64,000 nucleotides of DNA. Origin: Nitrospinaceae bacterium (GTDB lineage Bacteria > Nitrospinota > Nitrospinia > Nitrospinales > Nitrospinaceae). Of the stretch, positions 48,162 through 56,327 are shown in pieces. Location: NCBI GenBank assembly GCA_029261395.1, contig JAJDBJ010000047.1, forward strand, positions 1 through 64,000, written 5' to 3'. Under the pieces are notes generated by a model, which saw only the letters and a program-made list of their open reading frames with translations, made no database searches and was not told the origin of the DNA. Made by a program: the position numbers and the translations under genes. The first letter of the stretch is position 1, and each line of letters begins with the position of its first letter.

Positions 48162-48461
48162 TGCTTCGAATAACTGTCTTGTTTTCCCTTGAGTATAAGG
48201 CCCACCTTGACGCGACTCCAGACCTTTTTCCATGGTTCGGGATAGCCTTTTCACCCTTGATTTTAGAGGACCTCCAAAGATAGACTGCCTCCAATTCACC
48301 TAAAATCAACGAAATCCTCCAAATCCGTGAAGAATCAAAGGGTTTCATTTGGGAATCGTCACCGGAAACTTTTCGGTTTCATTTATCAAAAGACGTCCTT
48401 TGAGTTAGAATGGAATGTACCTTACCCACGTAATTTCAGTACTATAAAAGGATTTCAGGAC

Positions 48462-50252
48462 ATGCAGTCGGAGCCACTGGTTTGCCAGGCGCGCGAGCTA
48501 TTAAAAAAGGGCGATTTTGTCGGGGTCTATGATGTGGCCTACAAGGCCCTCGAAGACCAGGGTAGCGTCGACCCGATTTTGGCTCATTTGGCTGTCCTCA
48601 GTCTGGCCAGAAGTGGTGCTACGACCCAGGCGGAACATTTGTACCGAAAAGTGAAAGACGTACTGCCTCCCACTGAGGACAATCTTTCTCTGGAAGCGCG
48701 ACTGTACAAAGATCAGTTTTTAAAAGCCAGGGATCTAAAAATCAAAGCGTCGTTGGGGAAAAAAGCCCGGGACCTTTATCTTGAAGCGTATCGGATTAAC
48801 AATAATTACTATCCCGCCATCAATGCCGCAACTCTGTCATTGATCATTGGCGATACCACTGCCTGCCATCAATTGGCAAAGGAAGTTTTGAAACTGTGCG
48901 ACCAAAGTTCTTCCACCCATGGCGATGAGGATTATTATCTCGACGTGACACGCGCCGAAGCGAATCTTCTTTTGGGAAAAGAGGATGAAATCGCCTCGGT
49001 TTTATCTCACGCCTATATGGATCGCTATCATGATTATGGTCAACTGAGCACCACCTGGAAACAATTATCCCTGATCTGCGAGCATCGGGGAATCTCCACC
49101 GGTTGCATCCAGGCCATCCAGCCTCCCACGGTGATTGCTTTTATGGGGCAAACCATTCATGGCATGGGAAAATCTCCCGGCATCGATCCTGCGGATGAAG
49201 AGATGCTCCGCAAACAGATTCGCAACCTGCTGGAAAAACATAAAATCAAAATCGCCTTTGGGGCGCTGGCGTGTGGCGCCGATTTAATGGTTGCTGAGGA
49301 AATATTGAAACAAAACGGAGAATTGAACGTGATTTTGCCGTTCTCCCGGGAAGAATTCAAACGCACCTCGGTCTCACCGGCAGGCCCGGCCTGGGAGGAA
49401 CGATTTGACCGGGCGCTGGAACGTGCCGCCTCGTTTTATGAAATCGTGGAGGACGCCTACACCGGTTACGACTTGCTGTACGAAGCGTGTTCCCTGCAGA
49501 TCATGGGACTGGCGTATCTGCGATCGCAAACTCTGGGGTCGCAGGCTTACCAGGTGGCGTTGTGGAACGGCCAGCCATCCGCCAGCCCCGGAGGCACCGC
49601 CGCCGCCATGCAACGCTGGGAAGCTTTGGGGCAAAAGAACCTGATCATCCCGGTGCCGGAACCCCGTTCCAAAGGGGTGGCTCCGTTACCGGTAGCTTCA
49701 TCCCAAAAAATTGAGCTGAAGCGCCACATGAAGGCCATGATTTTTGCCGATGTGAAAGGCTACAGCAACCTTAAGGAAAAACAACTGCCGCAGTTCATTT
49801 CCCGGTGGTTCCACCATCTGGAACAAATTTTTAACAACCATTCCGGAACAATTTTGTTCGCCAATACGTGGGGAGACGCGATTTATCTGGTCATGGATTC
49901 CGTGACTTCCGCCGCCCGGGTTTCGCTGGAGCTGACCCGGATCTTCTCCGACCAGGAACTGGCCGAACTGGGGTTACCGGAGGACCTGGGGTTACGGGTC
50001 GCAACGCATGTGGGACCGATTTTTGAGGGGTATAATCCCCTCACTTGTAAAAAAGAATATTTCGGGACGCATGTCAACAAAACCGCCCGGCTGGAGCCCT
50101 GCACTCCGGTGGGATCGGTCTATGTGACGGAACCCTTTGCCGCACTGATTTCCATTGAGGCGGCCGGGGTTTATCGGTGTGAGTACGTGGGCAACCACCC
50201 CCTGCCCAAAAATTTTGGAAGAATCCGTATGTATCACCTTGGAGAAAATTGA
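48462..50252 (+). CDS. TPR/SLOG-like/class III nucleotidyl cyclase
   Basis: A 596-residue cytoplasmic three-part protein. Residues 1-215 are helical with TPR-like repeats, recalling TPR-S/DUF4071 regions of bacterial signalling proteins. Residues 220-400 are a Rossmann-type segment (PPTVIAFMGQTIHGMGKSPG, FGALACGADLMVAEEIL) of SLOG-like aspect. Residues 420-596 are a class III cyclase: metal Asp in FADVKGYS (430) and TWGDAIYL (472), transition-state Asn539 and Arg543 in HVNKTARLEP. The purine-selecting Lys and Asp appear replaced by Asn468 and Glu532, so the product may not be cAMP or cGMP. ATG 48462 is chosen; an upstream extension reaches 48327. It heads the operon with the next two genes. 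Confidence 0.78.
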   Translation: MQSEPLVCQARELLKKGDFVGVYDVAYKALEDQGSVDPILAHLAVLSLARSGATTQAEHLYRKVKDVLPPTEDNLSLEARLYKDQFLKARDLKIKASLGKKARDLYLEAYRINNNYYPAINAATLSLIIGDTTACHQLAKEVLKLCDQSSSTHGDEDYYLDVTRAEANLLLGKEDEIASVLSHAYMDRYHDYGQLSTTWKQLSLICEHRGISTGCIQAIQPPTVIAFMGQTIHGMGKSPGIDPADEEMLRKQIRNLLEKHKIKIAFGALACGADLMVAEEILKQNGELNVILPFSREEFKRTSVSPAGPAWEERFDRALERAASFYEIVEDAYTGYDLLYEACSLQIMGLAYLRSQTLGSQAYQVALWNGQPSASPGGTAAAMQRWEALGQKNLIIPVPEPRSKGVAPLPVASSQKIELKRHMKAMIFADVKGYSNLKEKQLPQFISRWFHHLEQIFNNHSGTILFANTWGDAIYLVMDSVTSAARVSLELTRIFSDQELAELGLPEDLGLRVATHVGPIFEGYNPLTCKKEYFGTHVNKTARLEPCTPVGSVYVTEPFAALISIEAAGVYRCEYVGNHPLPKNFGRIRMYHLGEN

Positions 50253-50253
50253 A

Positions 50254-51948
50254 ATGGCACGACCGCAGTTGATTTATTTATGGGCGCTGGCTCTGGTTTG
50301 GTGTGTGGTGTTTCCTGGCACCGCGGCTTCCCAACAAAGAACTCCCATCCAGTTTTTGTCGGTGGCTCCGGATGCAGATACCAAGCTGGCCGACCAGAAG
50401 CTTCTGGATTATTTGCGTCACAAAGTTCCCGTGACCTTTGAAACGCAGGAAATGGGATATGAATCGTCGATCCAAACCCTGATGAACTGGGATCCTGAAA
50501 AGCAGGGGCCGTTGTTGGCCCGGGTCACGCCTTACGCCTTTGTCGTCGCGGAAATGCTGGGGGCGAATATGGAAATTGTGGGGACGTATTTAAATAAAAG
50601 TTCCAATAGCGTTACCGGTGACAGCTACCTCGTCGTTCACAAAGATTTCGGCTATGAAACAACCGAAGCCCTGGAAGATTTTTCCCGCCACCTGGGCAAC
50701 CCGGAAGCGCAGACAAAAGACTTCATCGAAATCCTAAAGCAGAGGGAAACGCCTGCACGTTTCGTCTATCACAGCAAGTTCAGCACCTCGAGTCATTTTC
50801 TGCCTTCTTTATACTTCAAGAAACGAGGCATCTTTTCCCTGTTCACCCAACCTAAAGGCAAACAGAAATTCATCATGATTCACAGCCTGGAGCCGGATGG
50901 GATTGCCAGTTCTTCCGAGTTGATCCCTATCATCAAAGGTCGGCAGGCAGATTTCGCGGCCGTGCGCGGCGGTGTCAAAATCAAGTTCGAAACCGATCCC
51001 GATCTCAAGTTCATCCAACTGCCTTACTCGCCGCCCAATGACCTCTTGGTGATGGTCAAACCGTTTAACAAACTCATCGGGCAGATCAAGGACCAGATTC
51101 TCGAAACCATCCGCAAGATGGAGGCGACCGACATCGGTGAAGGAGACATATTGAAGTGGGAAGATTTCAACGCCAGCCCCAAGGCGCGGAAGTCTCTGTC
51201 CAACTTGCGTTCCCTGGCTCAAACCACGCCTCACCCTGTGGTGATCAACGTTCGTAAATCTCAAAAGGAAAACTCCGGAATCGATGAAAAACATCTGGAG
51301 GCGGCCCGCCAGGCGGTGCGGTTTTCCGGAACCGAAATGGTGCTCTTCGATGAAGACTACCACAGCGCGTTTGACGTGCTCTGGACGCTGGAAACCTGGC
51401 ATGACCAGTCGATCCTGCTGACCAGTACCATCATGGATTCGGGCCTGACCCAGGAATTCTCAGTCAGCTATCGCATCGGAGATATGCAAAACCTGGCATC
51501 GCGCATCAGCCGGGTAATCGACTATAAAATGCACCGCATCCGTTATGTCTGGCCGTTCGATGACGAAACCGCCCGGGTTCTGCGGGATGTCGATTTTCAA
51601 ATTCCCGTGGGCCAACAACTGAAGGTTCAAAAAATCACGTGGAGTGATTTCAATACCAACGAGTACACGGTGGACACGCCTTTCGACGTGGAAGTTACCC
51701 ACTCGGATTTTTATTCATTCCAACTGAAGGGCAAGGGCTTCCCGCAAATGGAAGATGGCAAGTTCGGGTTCGAGCCTTTGAGCAATGTCGCCTACCGGGT
51801 GTTTCTGGAGCGAACCCCCGACGCCGGGGAGGCCTACAAACTGACCACCAAAATTTTGATCGGGTTGTTTGGACTGGCCGCCTTGTTCACTTTGGTCGAG
51901 GTGATCATTAAACCTAAAACGCCCGACCGTCATAAAGAAAAATCATGA
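50254..51948 (+). CDS. Membrane-anchored periplasmic PBP-like protein
   Basis: A 564-residue exported protein. Signal peptide LIYLWALALVWCVVFPGTAA; a single C-terminal helix (ILIGLFGLAALFTLVEVII) then basic residues, so it is anchored with the bulk outside. Residues about 30-260 resemble a type 2 substrate-binding (PhnD-like) domain: TPYAFVVAEMLGANMEIVGT, SYLVVHKD, VYHSKFSTSSHFLPSLYFKK, and FAAVRGGVKIKF. A second region, residues about 290-530, has no known motif. It starts one base after the cyclase stop, and its stop overlaps the TIR start. It is likely the sensor part of a signalling unit. Confidence 0.65.
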   Translation: MARPQLIYLWALALVWCVVFPGTAASQQRTPIQFLSVAPDADTKLADQKLLDYLRHKVPVTFETQEMGYESSIQTLMNWDPEKQGPLLARVTPYAFVVAEMLGANMEIVGTYLNKSSNSVTGDSYLVVHKDFGYETTEALEDFSRHLGNPEAQTKDFIEILKQRETPARFVYHSKFSTSSHFLPSLYFKKRGIFSLFTQPKGKQKFIMIHSLEPDGIASSSELIPIIKGRQADFAAVRGGVKIKFETDPDLKFIQLPYSPPNDLLVMVKPFNKLIGQIKDQILETIRKMEATDIGEGDILKWEDFNASPKARKSLSNLRSLAQTTPHPVVINVRKSQKENSGIDEKHLEAARQAVRFSGTEMVLFDEDYHSAFDVLWTLETWHDQSILLTSTIMDSGLTQEFSVSYRIGDMQNLASRISRVIDYKMHRIRYVWPFDDETARVLRDVDFQIPVGQQLKVQKITWSDFNTNEYTVDTPFDVEVTHSDFYSFQLKGKGFPQMEDGKFGFEPLSNVAYRVFLERTPDAGEAYKLTTKILIGLFGLAALFTLVEVIIKPKTPDRHKEKS

Positions 51949-53126
51949 GTCATCGTATTTTAAATAATCGTCTGGGATTGATCTTCATCCTGCTCACGGT
52001 GTTCACCGTGAACTATATCCAGACCCAGATGAAGTCGAGCCTGAATAACCCGGCGCATTATGAAACGGGTTATGAAATCGCCCAGGCGTTTATGGAATTG
52101 GAAGGGAATCTGGATTTCTCGCAGTTTGAGGGACTCGGTGAAGGGGCGGCGGCGGCTCATTCCATTTCCTACTACATTTTATGCCCCGTGTTGTTGCTGG
52201 CAGTGATTGGCGGCCTGCTGTTCCGCAGAGAGATCACACCTTTCCGCGTGATGACCCTCGGGCTCGCCATCAGTTATGTGATCGCCCTGTGCTTCTTTAT
52301 TTTTTTCCCGGTTCCAGAACGCTGGGCGTTTCCGCCAGCCAACGCCACATTGCTCTCCGATATTGTGTCCACCGGATGGATTGAATCGTACCGGTCGTTC
52401 CGTGCGTTGGACAACGCTTTTCCCAGTCTCTTCGCGGCTTTTACTCTGGTGATGATTTTTGTCTGCTACCGTTACCGGTTCAAATTCAAGAACCCCATTT
52501 GCCTGCTGGGCATCATGGTGATTCTGTCTTCGTTCACCCTGGGTATTCACTGGGTGCCGGATCTGCTCATGGGCGGATTCGTCGGCATCTTCAGCGCTTC
52601 TGTCGCCGTTTTGTGGGATCACCGCATTGTGGACAAAATCAAAAAGGTGCAACCGGAACTGGCAACCCAGGGCTCCGCGGTCATGGGAATCAAACTGCCG
52701 GTGAAAAAAACGACCTTCATCAGTTATCGCAGGGAGACCGGCTCCATCATGGCGCGTATCGTTCAATCGGAATTAAAAAAACGGGGACACCTGTCCTTTC
52801 TGGATGTCGACGATCTCGGGCCGAAACAGTTTGGGGAACGGTTACTGCGGGAAATCGAATCAGTCCCCAACTTCGTGGTGGTCTTGTCGCCCGGCTCGAT
52901 GGACCGGTGCCAGGCGCACGACGACTGGTTGCGCAGGGAAATCTCCCATGCCATCACCACCCACCGGAACATCGTCCCGCTCATGGTCGATGAATTCCAA
53001 TACCCGCCCAAGGAAAAGATTCCAGACGAGCTTGAAGAACTCCTGCACCACAACGGCGTCAATTATTCCCACGAATACTTCGCCGCCACCTTTGACAAAC
53101 TCGCCGACTTTCTACAAAAAACATAG
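51945..53126 (+). CDS. PAP2-like membrane domain fused to C-terminal TIR
   Basis: A 393-residue protein. Residues 1-225 have about six transmembrane helices with PAP2/IPC-synthase-like features: FFPVPERWAF, DNAFPSLFAAF and SFTLGIHWVPDLLMGG. The active-site PSxH His is Phe (PSLF) and SR is SS, so phosphatase activity is doubtful. Residues 257-393 are a TIR domain: TTFISYRRETGSIMARIVQS, FLDVDDLGPKQFGERLLREI, VVVLSPGSMDRC, DDWLRREISHAI, with Glu332 at the place of the NADase glutamate. ATG overlaps the previous stop (ATGA). It is the presumed effector of the operon. Confidence 0.85.
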   Translation: MSHRILNNRLGLIFILLTVFTVNYIQTQMKSSLNNPAHYETGYEIAQAFMELEGNLDFSQFEGLGEGAAAAHSISYYILCPVLLLAVIGGLLFRREITPFRVMTLGLAISYVIALCFFIFFPVPERWAFPPANATLLSDIVSTGWIESYRSFRALDNAFPSLFAAFTLVMIFVCYRYRFKFKNPICLLGIMVILSSFTLGIHWVPDLLMGGFVGIFSASVAVLWDHRIVDKIKKVQPELATQGSAVMGIKLPVKKTTFISYRRETGSIMARIVQSELKKRGHLSFLDVDDLGPKQFGERLLREIESVPNFVVVLSPGSMDRCQAHDDWLRREISHAITTHRNIVPLMVDEFQYPPKEKIPDELEELLHHNGVNYSHEYFAATFDKLADFLQKT

Positions 53127-53377: not shown

Positions 53378-54463
53378 TTAATTAAGGAGTTCTATTAACG
53401 GTCTAAATATATAAATTTTTGTGTTACCCAATCTAAAAGAAGCCTCCTCTATTACTCCCTTATCTTTAAATAACCGAATAAGTCTGTTAGCAGTAACATA
53501 AGTCCCTTTTGTATAAAACATCAATTGAGAGATCGTAAAATAGGGTTTCTCAAATATAAATTCTATAAATGGGACTAAATAAGGTGATTTTGTAACTTTA
53601 AATATTTGTCTTGTATGGTCAAAAAGTTGATATATCTGATCGATTAAATTTTGTGTTGCCTCCGCTTGGGTTTTAACCCCTCTAAAGAAAAATGCTAACC
53701 AGGCATCATATTCCCCAGTCTTATCCACTGTATGTAGATGGTCTATATATTCATCTCTGTTTTCATCAAAGAATCCGCTTAAATAGAGAATCGGAGATGA
53801 AAGTTTGTTTTCATTATAAAGAATTAGGGGCACAAGAAGTCTTCCCAATCTTCCGTTTCCGTCATTAAATGGATGGACAGCCTCAAACTGATAATGAGCA
53901 AGACCTGCTTTAATAAGAGGTATTTCTGGATTTTCTTTTATATATTTTATCAAGTCATCCATGTAGCTTTGAACTAACAAGAACTCTGGAGGTATATAAC
54001 TGGCTTTTTCAACCGGGTCTCCAGGTTTGCCTATATAAACTAAGTCTTCTCTATATTGCCCAAGAGAACCCTTATGCCTAACACCCCTTAGTAATATTGC
54101 ATGTAAAGAATTTATTAAATTATGACTGATTTTCCTGCCTTCTTGGAGTTCTTGCATAGCATGTTTTACAGCACTCCTATAATTTGAGACTTGGGCTGAA
54201 TCTGCGCTTTCTGGTTTTCCCCCAGCTTCGTAAAGAAAAACATCTGAGATGGTGCTGATAGTTCCTTCAATTCTGGAGCTAACAGTTGCTTCTTTTGCGG
54301 ACAGTGGTGAAATTAGAAGTGAGGGGTTCTGCAATTTTCTTTGAGACCCTTCCAGAAGTCCCAATGCATATGTGGCTTCATCAAGCTCCCTCCTAAATTT
54401 ATTTGAATCTAAATCTATTTCTTGGGAACCTAAAAATTTTGGATTGTGGTGTTTTATTAGCAT
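53378..54463 (-). CDS. Fic-domain protein with N-terminal inhibitory helix and C-terminal wHTH
   Basis: A 361-residue Fic enzyme, which usually transfers AMP from ATP to a target Tyr/Ser/Thr. Active motif: AVHPFNDGNGRLGRLLVPLI, intact HPFxxGNGR. The N-terminal inhibitory helix motif (S/T)xxxE(G/N) is VSSRIEGTIS, so this is class II and self-inhibited. The C-terminus (FTISQLMFYTKGTYVTANRL) looks like a winged-helix DNA-binding domain. The gene is much more AT-rich than its neighbours, a sign of recent acquisition. Two palindromes upstream fit autoregulation. There is no FicA-like small antitoxin beside it. Confidence 0.92.
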   Translation of the reverse strand: MLIKHHNPKFLGSQEIDLDSNKFRRELDEATYALGLLEGSQRKLQNPSLLISPLSAKEATVSSRIEGTISTISDVFLYEAGGKPESADSAQVSNYRSAVKHAMQELQEGRKISHNLINSLHAILLRGVRHKGSLGQYREDLVYIGKPGDPVEKASYIPPEFLLVQSYMDDLIKYIKENPEIPLIKAGLAHYQFEAVHPFNDGNGRLGRLLVPLILYNENKLSSPILYLSGFFDENRDEYIDHLHTVDKTGEYDAWLAFFFRGVKTQAEATQNLIDQIYQLFDHTRQIFKVTKSPYLVPFIEFIFEKPYFTISQLMFYTKGTYVTANRLIRLFKDKGVIEEASFRLGNTKIYIFRPLIELLN

Positions 54464-55560: not shown

Positions 55561-56220
55561 CTATTCCTCGTTCACTTCGCACTCGTATTCGCTGTCGTTG
55601 AGCCAGTTGATTTTCATGTAGGCGGGGAGTTGGGTGGTGGTATCGATGATTGCCGAACGGAGTTGTTCGCAGGACAAGTTTTCCGCCCCGCGCAGGTCGG
55701 CTCCTTTTAAATTCGCGCCGGTGAGGTCCGCCGACTGCAGTTTGGCGCCCTGTAAAATGGTTTTGGACAAATCGGCACCGGCAAAATTGCCCTCCATCAA
55801 AGTCGACGCGTGCCCTATATCCGCACCGGTGAAGTTGGCCCCTGCCGCATTCACCTCGGAAAAATCCACCTTGGCCAGGTTGGCTTCGAGAAAACAGGCC
55901 TTGCTGATATCGGCATCGAAAAAATTAGCGCCGCCCAGATTGGCGCGGGTGAGATCAGTCTCCATCAAGTCGGCCTGAGAGAAAACCGTACCGACTAAAA
56001 GCGCGCCCTCCAGGTTGGCTCCGCACAAATCGACATAGGACATATCCACCCCGCACAAATCCACGCGGGGTAAATGCATGCGGGCCATCGAAGGCAGACT
56101 GAGCCGATGCTTCAACAGCTTCAAAATGGCTTCCGCCTTTTTCAAAACGGTGTCCGCTTCTGTATGCTCTCTGTGATCTTCGAGGAAAGCCACCAGGGTC
56201 TCTTCTGAAAAATCAGTCAT
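55561..56220 (-). CDS. Pentapeptide-repeat protein
   Basis: A 219-residue cytoplasmic protein. From about residue 45 there are some twenty A(D/N)LXX pentapeptides, for example VDLCGVDMSYVDLCGANLEG and ADLMETDLTRANLGGANF, forming a right-handed quadrilateral beta-helix. The N-terminal 45 and C-terminal 35 residues are not repeats. Some pentapeptide proteins mimic DNA and shield gyrase, but most have no known role, and nothing here indicates one. ATG 56220 (MTDFSEET) is preferred, with GGGA upstream. Confidence 0.88.
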   Translation of the reverse strand: MTDFSEETLVAFLEDHREHTEADTVLKKAEAILKLLKHRLSLPSMARMHLPRVDLCGVDMSYVDLCGANLEGALLVGTVFSQADLMETDLTRANLGGANFFDADISKACFLEANLAKVDFSEVNAAGANFTGADIGHASTLMEGNFAGADLSKTILQGAKLQSADLTGANLKGADLRGAENLSCEQLRSAIIDTTTQLPAYMKINWLNDSEYECEVNEE

Positions 56221-56327
56221 CGGTATTCCCTTCAAATCCGTGGGTGAGTTCGACAAAAAGGGTATCAAAACCTGGGAGGGAATGGAATTAAATCCGTATT
56301 AATTTTGATCGCTTTTTGCAAATCACA

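Follow-up and report, generated by a model that had tools for sequence, protein, structure and literature searches.

Which nucleotide does a class III cyclase with unusual base-selecting residues use, and what is such an enzyme for? The question is raised by the first of three consecutive genes in a 64,000 nt stretch of Nitrospinaceae DNA, called the window here. An earlier note on this sequence had drawn attention to residues Asn468 and Glu532 of the cyclase. In our analysis the surroundings of the enzyme outrank these residues in interest: one operon (Table 1) combines a SARM1-type TIR domain with a divergent cyclase that bears an ASK1-type TPR sensor, which suggests a bacterial pathway that starts with an NAD-derived signal and ends with a cyclic nucleotide.

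The cyclase and its base pocket

The mechanical open reading frame of gene 1 (48327..50252, + strand) opens at a GTG at position 48327. The gene itself probably starts at residue 46 of this frame, an ATG at 48462: most relatives align only from residues 37-49 onwards, and several of them have in-frame stops just upstream. Residue numbers (N468, E532 etc.) count from this Met, and with this numbering both residues named in the earlier note are exact. Residues 470-627 of the mechanical frame score 32.9 bits with PF00211, above the cut-off, and the domain has the class III features of both metal Asp (D430 and D472) and the transition-state Arg; the Asn/Arg pair is N539/R543. In our judgement, gene 1 quite probably encodes an active cyclase. 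PADLOC, whose library may lack PycC models, gave no cyclase-family match for gene 1.

Table 1 Positions of the operon features and of two PycC-like cyclases used for comparison (window coordinates unless a locus is given)
Feature	Position	Strand	Remark
Gene 1, soluble, TPR-S + Rossmann/SLOG-like + class III nucleotidyl cyclase	48462..50252	+	596 aa
TPR-S (PF20308) / MAP3K_TRAF_bd (PF13281)	48564..48839	+	53 bits / 25.1 bits (cut-off 24.1)
Middle alpha/beta domain, strands and helices alternating like those of SLOG/Rossmann folds	49128..49652	+	by eye, predicted secondary structure
Class III cyclase catalytic domain of gene 1	49734..50207	+	PF00211
D430, first metal Asp	49749..49751	+	
N-T-W-G-D motif: N468 (Lys position), W470 (-2), D472	49863..49877	+	
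N468, Lys position, inside FANTWGD	49863-49865	+	
D472, second metal Asp	49875-49877	+	
E532, Asp position, inside KKEYFGTHVN	50055..50057	+	
N539, transition-state Asn	50076..50078	+	Thr in L006, L008, L019
R543, transition-state Arg	50088..50090	+	family-invariant
Gene 2, N-terminal signal-like helix + large periplasmic domain + one C-terminal TM helix	50254..51948	+	
Gene 3, PAP2-like membrane domain + C-terminal TIR	51945..53126	+	start overlaps gene 2 stop
PAP2_3-like membrane part of gene 3	52161..52598	+	
TIR domain of gene 3, SARM1-type	52716..53069	+	PDB profile E 2e-41
E332, TIR catalytic Glu of gene 3	52938..52940	+	aligned with SARM1 catalytic Glu
PycC-like cyclase of G301, Y/D/R signature, adjoins PycTM-type gene	L195 4248-4958	+	
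PycC-like cyclase of a Lactococcus lactis plasmid, F/R/Q of CTP-using clade E, adjoins PycTM-type gene	L182 2736-4010	+	

The gene 1 family was aligned with 91 background class III domains, a set skewed to high-scoring PF00211 members. The Lys position is occupied in this background by K (85), E (3), Q (2) or M (1) and never by N. By contrast, 11 of 12 relatives picked by overall similarity carry N there, all of them within N-T-W-G-D, including genes from Rhizobium and from a Priestia plasmid; the exception, from Caballeronia, carries E and is one of the three E of the background. Trp is found two residues ahead of the second metal Asp in 18/18 NTWGD domains, which is partly a result of motif-based selection, as these 18 include relatives retrieved by the motif itself. 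The Asp position, defined as the residue 7 ahead of the VN Asn, is T in 64 background domains, D in 17, S in 6, G in 2, R in 1 and K in 1. The earlier statement that adenylate cyclases have Asp at this site is therefore too simple. Within the family this position is E in the window's Nitrospina-like genus and in g3 and D in the sister genus g2, and further out it is N in G013, T in Rhizobium and A in others. On these alignments, Asn468 and Trp470 are the mark of the family and Glu532 is a local choice that is unconserved past close relatives.

With its N/E pair, gene 1 departs both from the canonical adenylyl cyclase pair (Lys with Asp or Thr) and from the guanylyl cyclase pair (Glu with a Cys-type residue), as had been noticed before. 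Since N and W are family-wide and the pair lies outside both patterns, the base pocket of gene 1 is altered. Both other PF00211 matches in the host genome are of the canonical K type. A pattern search for NTWGD returned a handful of extra cyclase genes next to several chance matches; most of these rare relatives are Nitrospinota cyclases with pentapeptide repeats, a type in which the motif also occurs in one other genome. The unusual base-selecting residues belong to a small, deeply conserved bacterial family of cyclic-nucleotide enzymes. In the NTWGD cyclases of L092, L093, L095 and L096 the pentapeptide-like repeats are fused within the same protein.

The earlier note had left room for pyrimidine or altered specificity. 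The base-selecting residues published for pyrimidine cyclases are Y50/D94/R97 in BcPycC, F60/K104/F109 in AnPycC and F100/R142/Q144 in EaPycC (PMC11224242). Counted from the metal ligands, these residues lie at -2 of the first metal Asp and at -4, -2, +1 and +3 of the second; we derived the offsets from the numbers of the metal residues, with the matching L195 sequence as the guide for BcPycC. Two real PycC-PycTM pairs reproduce the published residues, namely that of G301 (L195), where Y...YDGDR gives the Y/D/R of BcPycC, and that of the Lactococcus plasmid (L182), where F...RIQGD gives the F/R/Q of EaPycC. Gene 1 has F/N/W/A at the corresponding positions, which agrees with none of Y/D/R, F/K/F and F/R/Q, and a profile of its family did not match either of these two PycC proteins. 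A pyrimidine specificity deduced from the residues was rejected for lack of support, given this mismatch with the published residues and with the two loci.

A close parallel to the pocket comes from Rv1900c (PDB 1YBT), which in the alignment reads vNTAGD, with Asn at the Lys site, D as its partner and His in place of the catalytic Asn. The N/D pair is shared with the sister genus g2, and the residue at -2 differs, being A in Rv1900c and W in gene 1. Rv1900c is an adenylyl cyclase with His for Asn and the purported maker of both cAMP and cGMP (PMC4886424). AlphaFold models of the gene 1 cyclase, built from shallow alignments, were of low confidence (pLDDT 68 and 63), and with these models Foldseek ranked the guanylyl cyclase Cya2, the adenylyl cyclase CyaB, AnPycC and Rv1900c as all similar. 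Without a PycC signature, with the Asn of Rv1900c and with weak models, we take a purine as the default substrate of gene 1, ATP being the likeliest; that the product is a purine cyclic nucleotide is, in our judgement, fairly probable. The altered pocket is thus upheld by the atypical pair and the family-wide N and W, and the special room seen for pyrimidines finds no support, given the missing signature and Rv1900c.

The operon in the Nitrospinaceae

The N-terminal part of gene 1 matches TPR-S (PF20308) with 53.3 bits against a curated cut-off of 27.6, over residues 80-171 of the mechanical frame, and its match to the MAP3K TRAF-binding family PF13281 barely exceeds the cut-off. A profile of this region matches the TPR structure of ASK1 (MAP3K5; 5ULM) with E 6e-4, amid mostly designed repeat proteins. 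TPR-S was reportedly predicted by Burroughs and Aravind in 2020 to be a sensor of NAD-derived signals that is also built into ASK1. The middle domain looks SLOG-like by eye, its strands and helices following one another in the low-confidence model as in a Rossmann fold; Pfam gave no SLOG match in this region, and none was among the listed fold matches.

Gene 2 begins two bases past the last base of the gene 1 stop codon. Its TM helix lies at about residues 530-554, and its large domain has a weak match, below the cut-off, to substrate-binding proteins of the phosphonate-binding PhnD type; sequence searches of PDB and NCBIfam returned no relatives. The TIR domain of gene 3 is 42% identical to that of human SARM1 across 133 aligned residues, and the best PDB entry outside SARM1/TIR-1 was matched by the TIR profile at only 1e-3. 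The catalytic E332 is invariant in 8/8 genomes, and gene 3 is the sole TIR_2 match of the genome. Judged from these sequence features, the TIR domain is very probably an NADase. Whereas g2 and g3 have PSVH at the PAP2 motif PSxH (52431-52433), the window's genus has PSLF, PSLS or PSLP; as the His is missing there, PAP2 catalysis has probably been lost in the window's genus while the TIR domain was kept intact. Pfam found no CNBD in gene 3, which is thus devoid of the receptor domain of PycTIR, and no PycTM was found in a search of the genome; six open reading frames with a CNBD are located elsewhere in it.

The order of cyclase, putative periplasmic sensor and PAP2-TIR is the same in the 8/8 Nitrospinaceae loci compared, including g2 with its different flanks. 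PAP2-TIR was present in 12/12 Nitrospinaceae genomes versus 0/78 others, and the gene 1 cyclase in 11/12, the genome without it being 70% complete; the set is single copy, save for a second copy of the cyclase in G006. As to carriage by phages, none of 50,697 phage records gave a match and IMG/VR yielded weak generic cyclases only. The three genes are a core, vertically inherited set, unlike a typical mobile defence locus, and their vertical, near-universal presence in one family sets them apart from most anti-phage systems. We consider a functional link between genes 1 and 3 to be highly probable.

Downstream of the operon, a Fic-domain gene (53378-54463, - strand) sits between it and a pentapeptide-repeat gene (55561-56268, - strand), which is kept beside the operon in several relatives. 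The Fic-domain gene was probably inserted, since it is missing at the same place in G001 and G005.

Relatives in other bacteria

The nearest full-length relative of gene 1 beyond the Nitrospinaceae, in G013, is 30% identical, and no TIR gene was found within about 8 kb of it. Co-location with TIR genes outside the family was seen in five loci that were found by chance, in genomes for which there is no background TIR rate. TIR genes lie within about 6 kb of the cyclase relative on plasmids of Caballeronia, Priestia and Tolypothrix, with the cyclase domain of the short Tolypothrix gene represented by its C-terminal half alone. In Novosphingobium a gene encoding TIR, TM and TPR parts precedes that of a TPR-S protein, beyond which a gene for a Crp-type CNBD regulator is found, and in G315 the gene for a TIR-TM protein, recognised by eye, is located upstream of a TPR-S gene on the same strand. 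G315 was the sole strong new match examined from a survey with PF20308; this survey returned many proteins at 25-35 bits that are probably generic TPRs, and it was not used for a statistic of TIR co-occurrence.

An independent case of a membrane TIR adjoining TPR-S is L229 (85-4469, - strand), where, in an unrelated genome, the TPR-S gene is next to a gene whose product shows, by eye, TIR, TM and propeller-like parts. On a Priestia aryabhattai plasmid (L029, NZ_CP128553.1), an NTWGD/TPR-S cyclase, a PycTM effector, a TIR gene and a RyR-domain gene occur together, and this may be a Pycsar-like locus with a cyclase other than PycC. The NTWGD/TPR-S gene is the sole cyclase of this locus and the PycTM-type effector is encoded three genes upstream; as such two-TM effectors also match CBASS effector models, the effector leaves the messenger unfixed. 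An NTWGD cyclase on a Rhizobium plasmid (L027 8001-9071, + strand) has a NUDIX domain as its fusion partner, and another NUDIX gene lies directly after it; this suggests a link to nucleotide or ADP-ribose turnover.

Direction of signalling and comparison with known systems

We propose, with a probability of about 0.45, that the operon is a signalling unit linked to the membrane and that the cyclase provides its output, the product of the TIR domain acting through TPR-S on the cyclase. Gene 2 would sense a periplasmic signal, upon which the PAP2-anchored SARM1-type TIR of gene 3 would cleave NAD+ to an ADP-ribose-type nucleotide. Binding of this product to TPR-S of gene 1, perhaps also to the SLOG-like part, would switch the cyclase on, and a 3',5'-cyclic nucleotide, most likely cAMP, would be made via the divergent pocket of N468, W470 and E or D at 532. 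The cyclic nucleotide may then act on the CNBD proteins encoded elsewhere in the genome.

A class III cyclase gene adjoining a TIR gene resembles Pycsar. In the Pycsar TIR effector, however, a CNBD serves to bind what the cyclase makes (PMC11224242), whereas gene 3 has none and TPR-S resides on gene 1; the flow is hence likely to be the opposite. That it runs from TIR to cyclase, the reverse of Pycsar, is the direction towards which our judgement leans. On two tested sequence features, the PycC pocket signature and a CNBD or PycTM effector, the operon appears to fall outside Pycsar. We have filed it among the TPR-S/TIR signalling systems. With the TPR-S sensor systems reported by Burroughs and Aravind 2020, to whose work PMC8195603 refers, it shares TPR-S near TIR genes and a cyclic-nucleotide cyclase as output. 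Its additions, which are constant throughout one family, are a SARM1-type TIR anchored by PAP2 and a periplasmic membrane protein that resembles substrate-binding proteins.

Alternatively, gene 1 could be an ordinary adenylyl cyclase with a harmless change of Lys to Asn that is regulated through its TPR domain, the TIR neighbour being functionally separate. The Asn of the known adenylyl cyclase Rv1900c, an alpha/beta-hydrolase fusion that is not known to lie in a TIR operon, is consistent with this, as are the D for E in g2 and the CNBD proteins of the genome. The order with gene 2 and PAP2-TIR is, however, fixed family-wide despite changing flanks, and in unrelated loci, too, TIR genes occur in the vicinity of genes for TPR-S proteins or NTWGD-type cyclases. 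We regard this explanation as rather unlikely, albeit the most serious of the alternatives.

Also unlikely, and placed next, is a stronger form of the proposed relay, namely that the operon constitutes a bacterial SARM1-ASK1 axis in which TPR-S directly reads an NAD-derived messenger made by the TIR and turns on the cyclase, whose N-W pocket yields a non-standard or relaxed cyclic nucleotide. Like the animal TIR-1/SARM1–NSY-1/ASK1 axis, the operon has a SARM1-type TIR and an ASK1-type TPR domain, but the output there is a MAP3 kinase and here a cyclase, with the bacterial flow only inferred; in animals, the way in which TIR-1/SARM1 switches on the NSY-1/ASK1 pathway was described as unclear (PMC8923663). 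If true, it would be a two-step nucleotide relay with a direction opposite to that of Pycsar.

A third explanation is that the cyclase domain binds nucleotides and regulates, and catalyses little or nothing. The catalytic Asn is replaced by Thr in three relatives (Table 1) and by Ser or Val in remoter ones, and the Novosphingobium relative, a TPR-S protein, has no cyclase match in Pfam and a C-terminal region that looks degenerate by eye; from the variation at E532 and N539 it is possible that some family members have lost or changed catalysis. All NTWGD domains nevertheless keep both metal Asp and the Arg invariant, and the Asn is also missing in Rv1900c (His) and in the active adenylyl cyclase Ma1120, which has Ala there (PMC4215837). 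We consider a regulator of this kind improbable.

Least probable is a Pycsar-like flow, in which the cyclase would make cUMP, cCMP or another odd cyclic nucleotide and, activated by it, the TIR protein would deplete NAD+ to stop growth on infection: the joint operon, the atypical base-selecting residues and the Priestia plasmid locus fit it, but gene 3 has no CNBD match, the genome has no PycTM, gene 1 has neither the PycC signature nor a profile relation to real PycC proteins, and the operon is a vertically kept core set rather than a mobile defence locus.

Since the ASK1-type TPR domain sits here on an enzyme that can be measured and is paired with a SARM1-type TIR, the operon offers a direct test of whether TPR-S reads the TIR product. 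Beyond this operon, NTWGD marks a class III cyclase family with members beside defence-type effectors in other bacteria. The SARM1-like bacterial TIR, with its 42% identity and other TIRs in the PDB far behind, is useful for studying the origin of SARM1. Another SARM1-like TIR gene, in Paraburkholderia (L181 5800-6624, + strand), lies downstream of a gene that by eye is VgrG-like, and its product is possibly a type VI secretion effector acting between bacteria.
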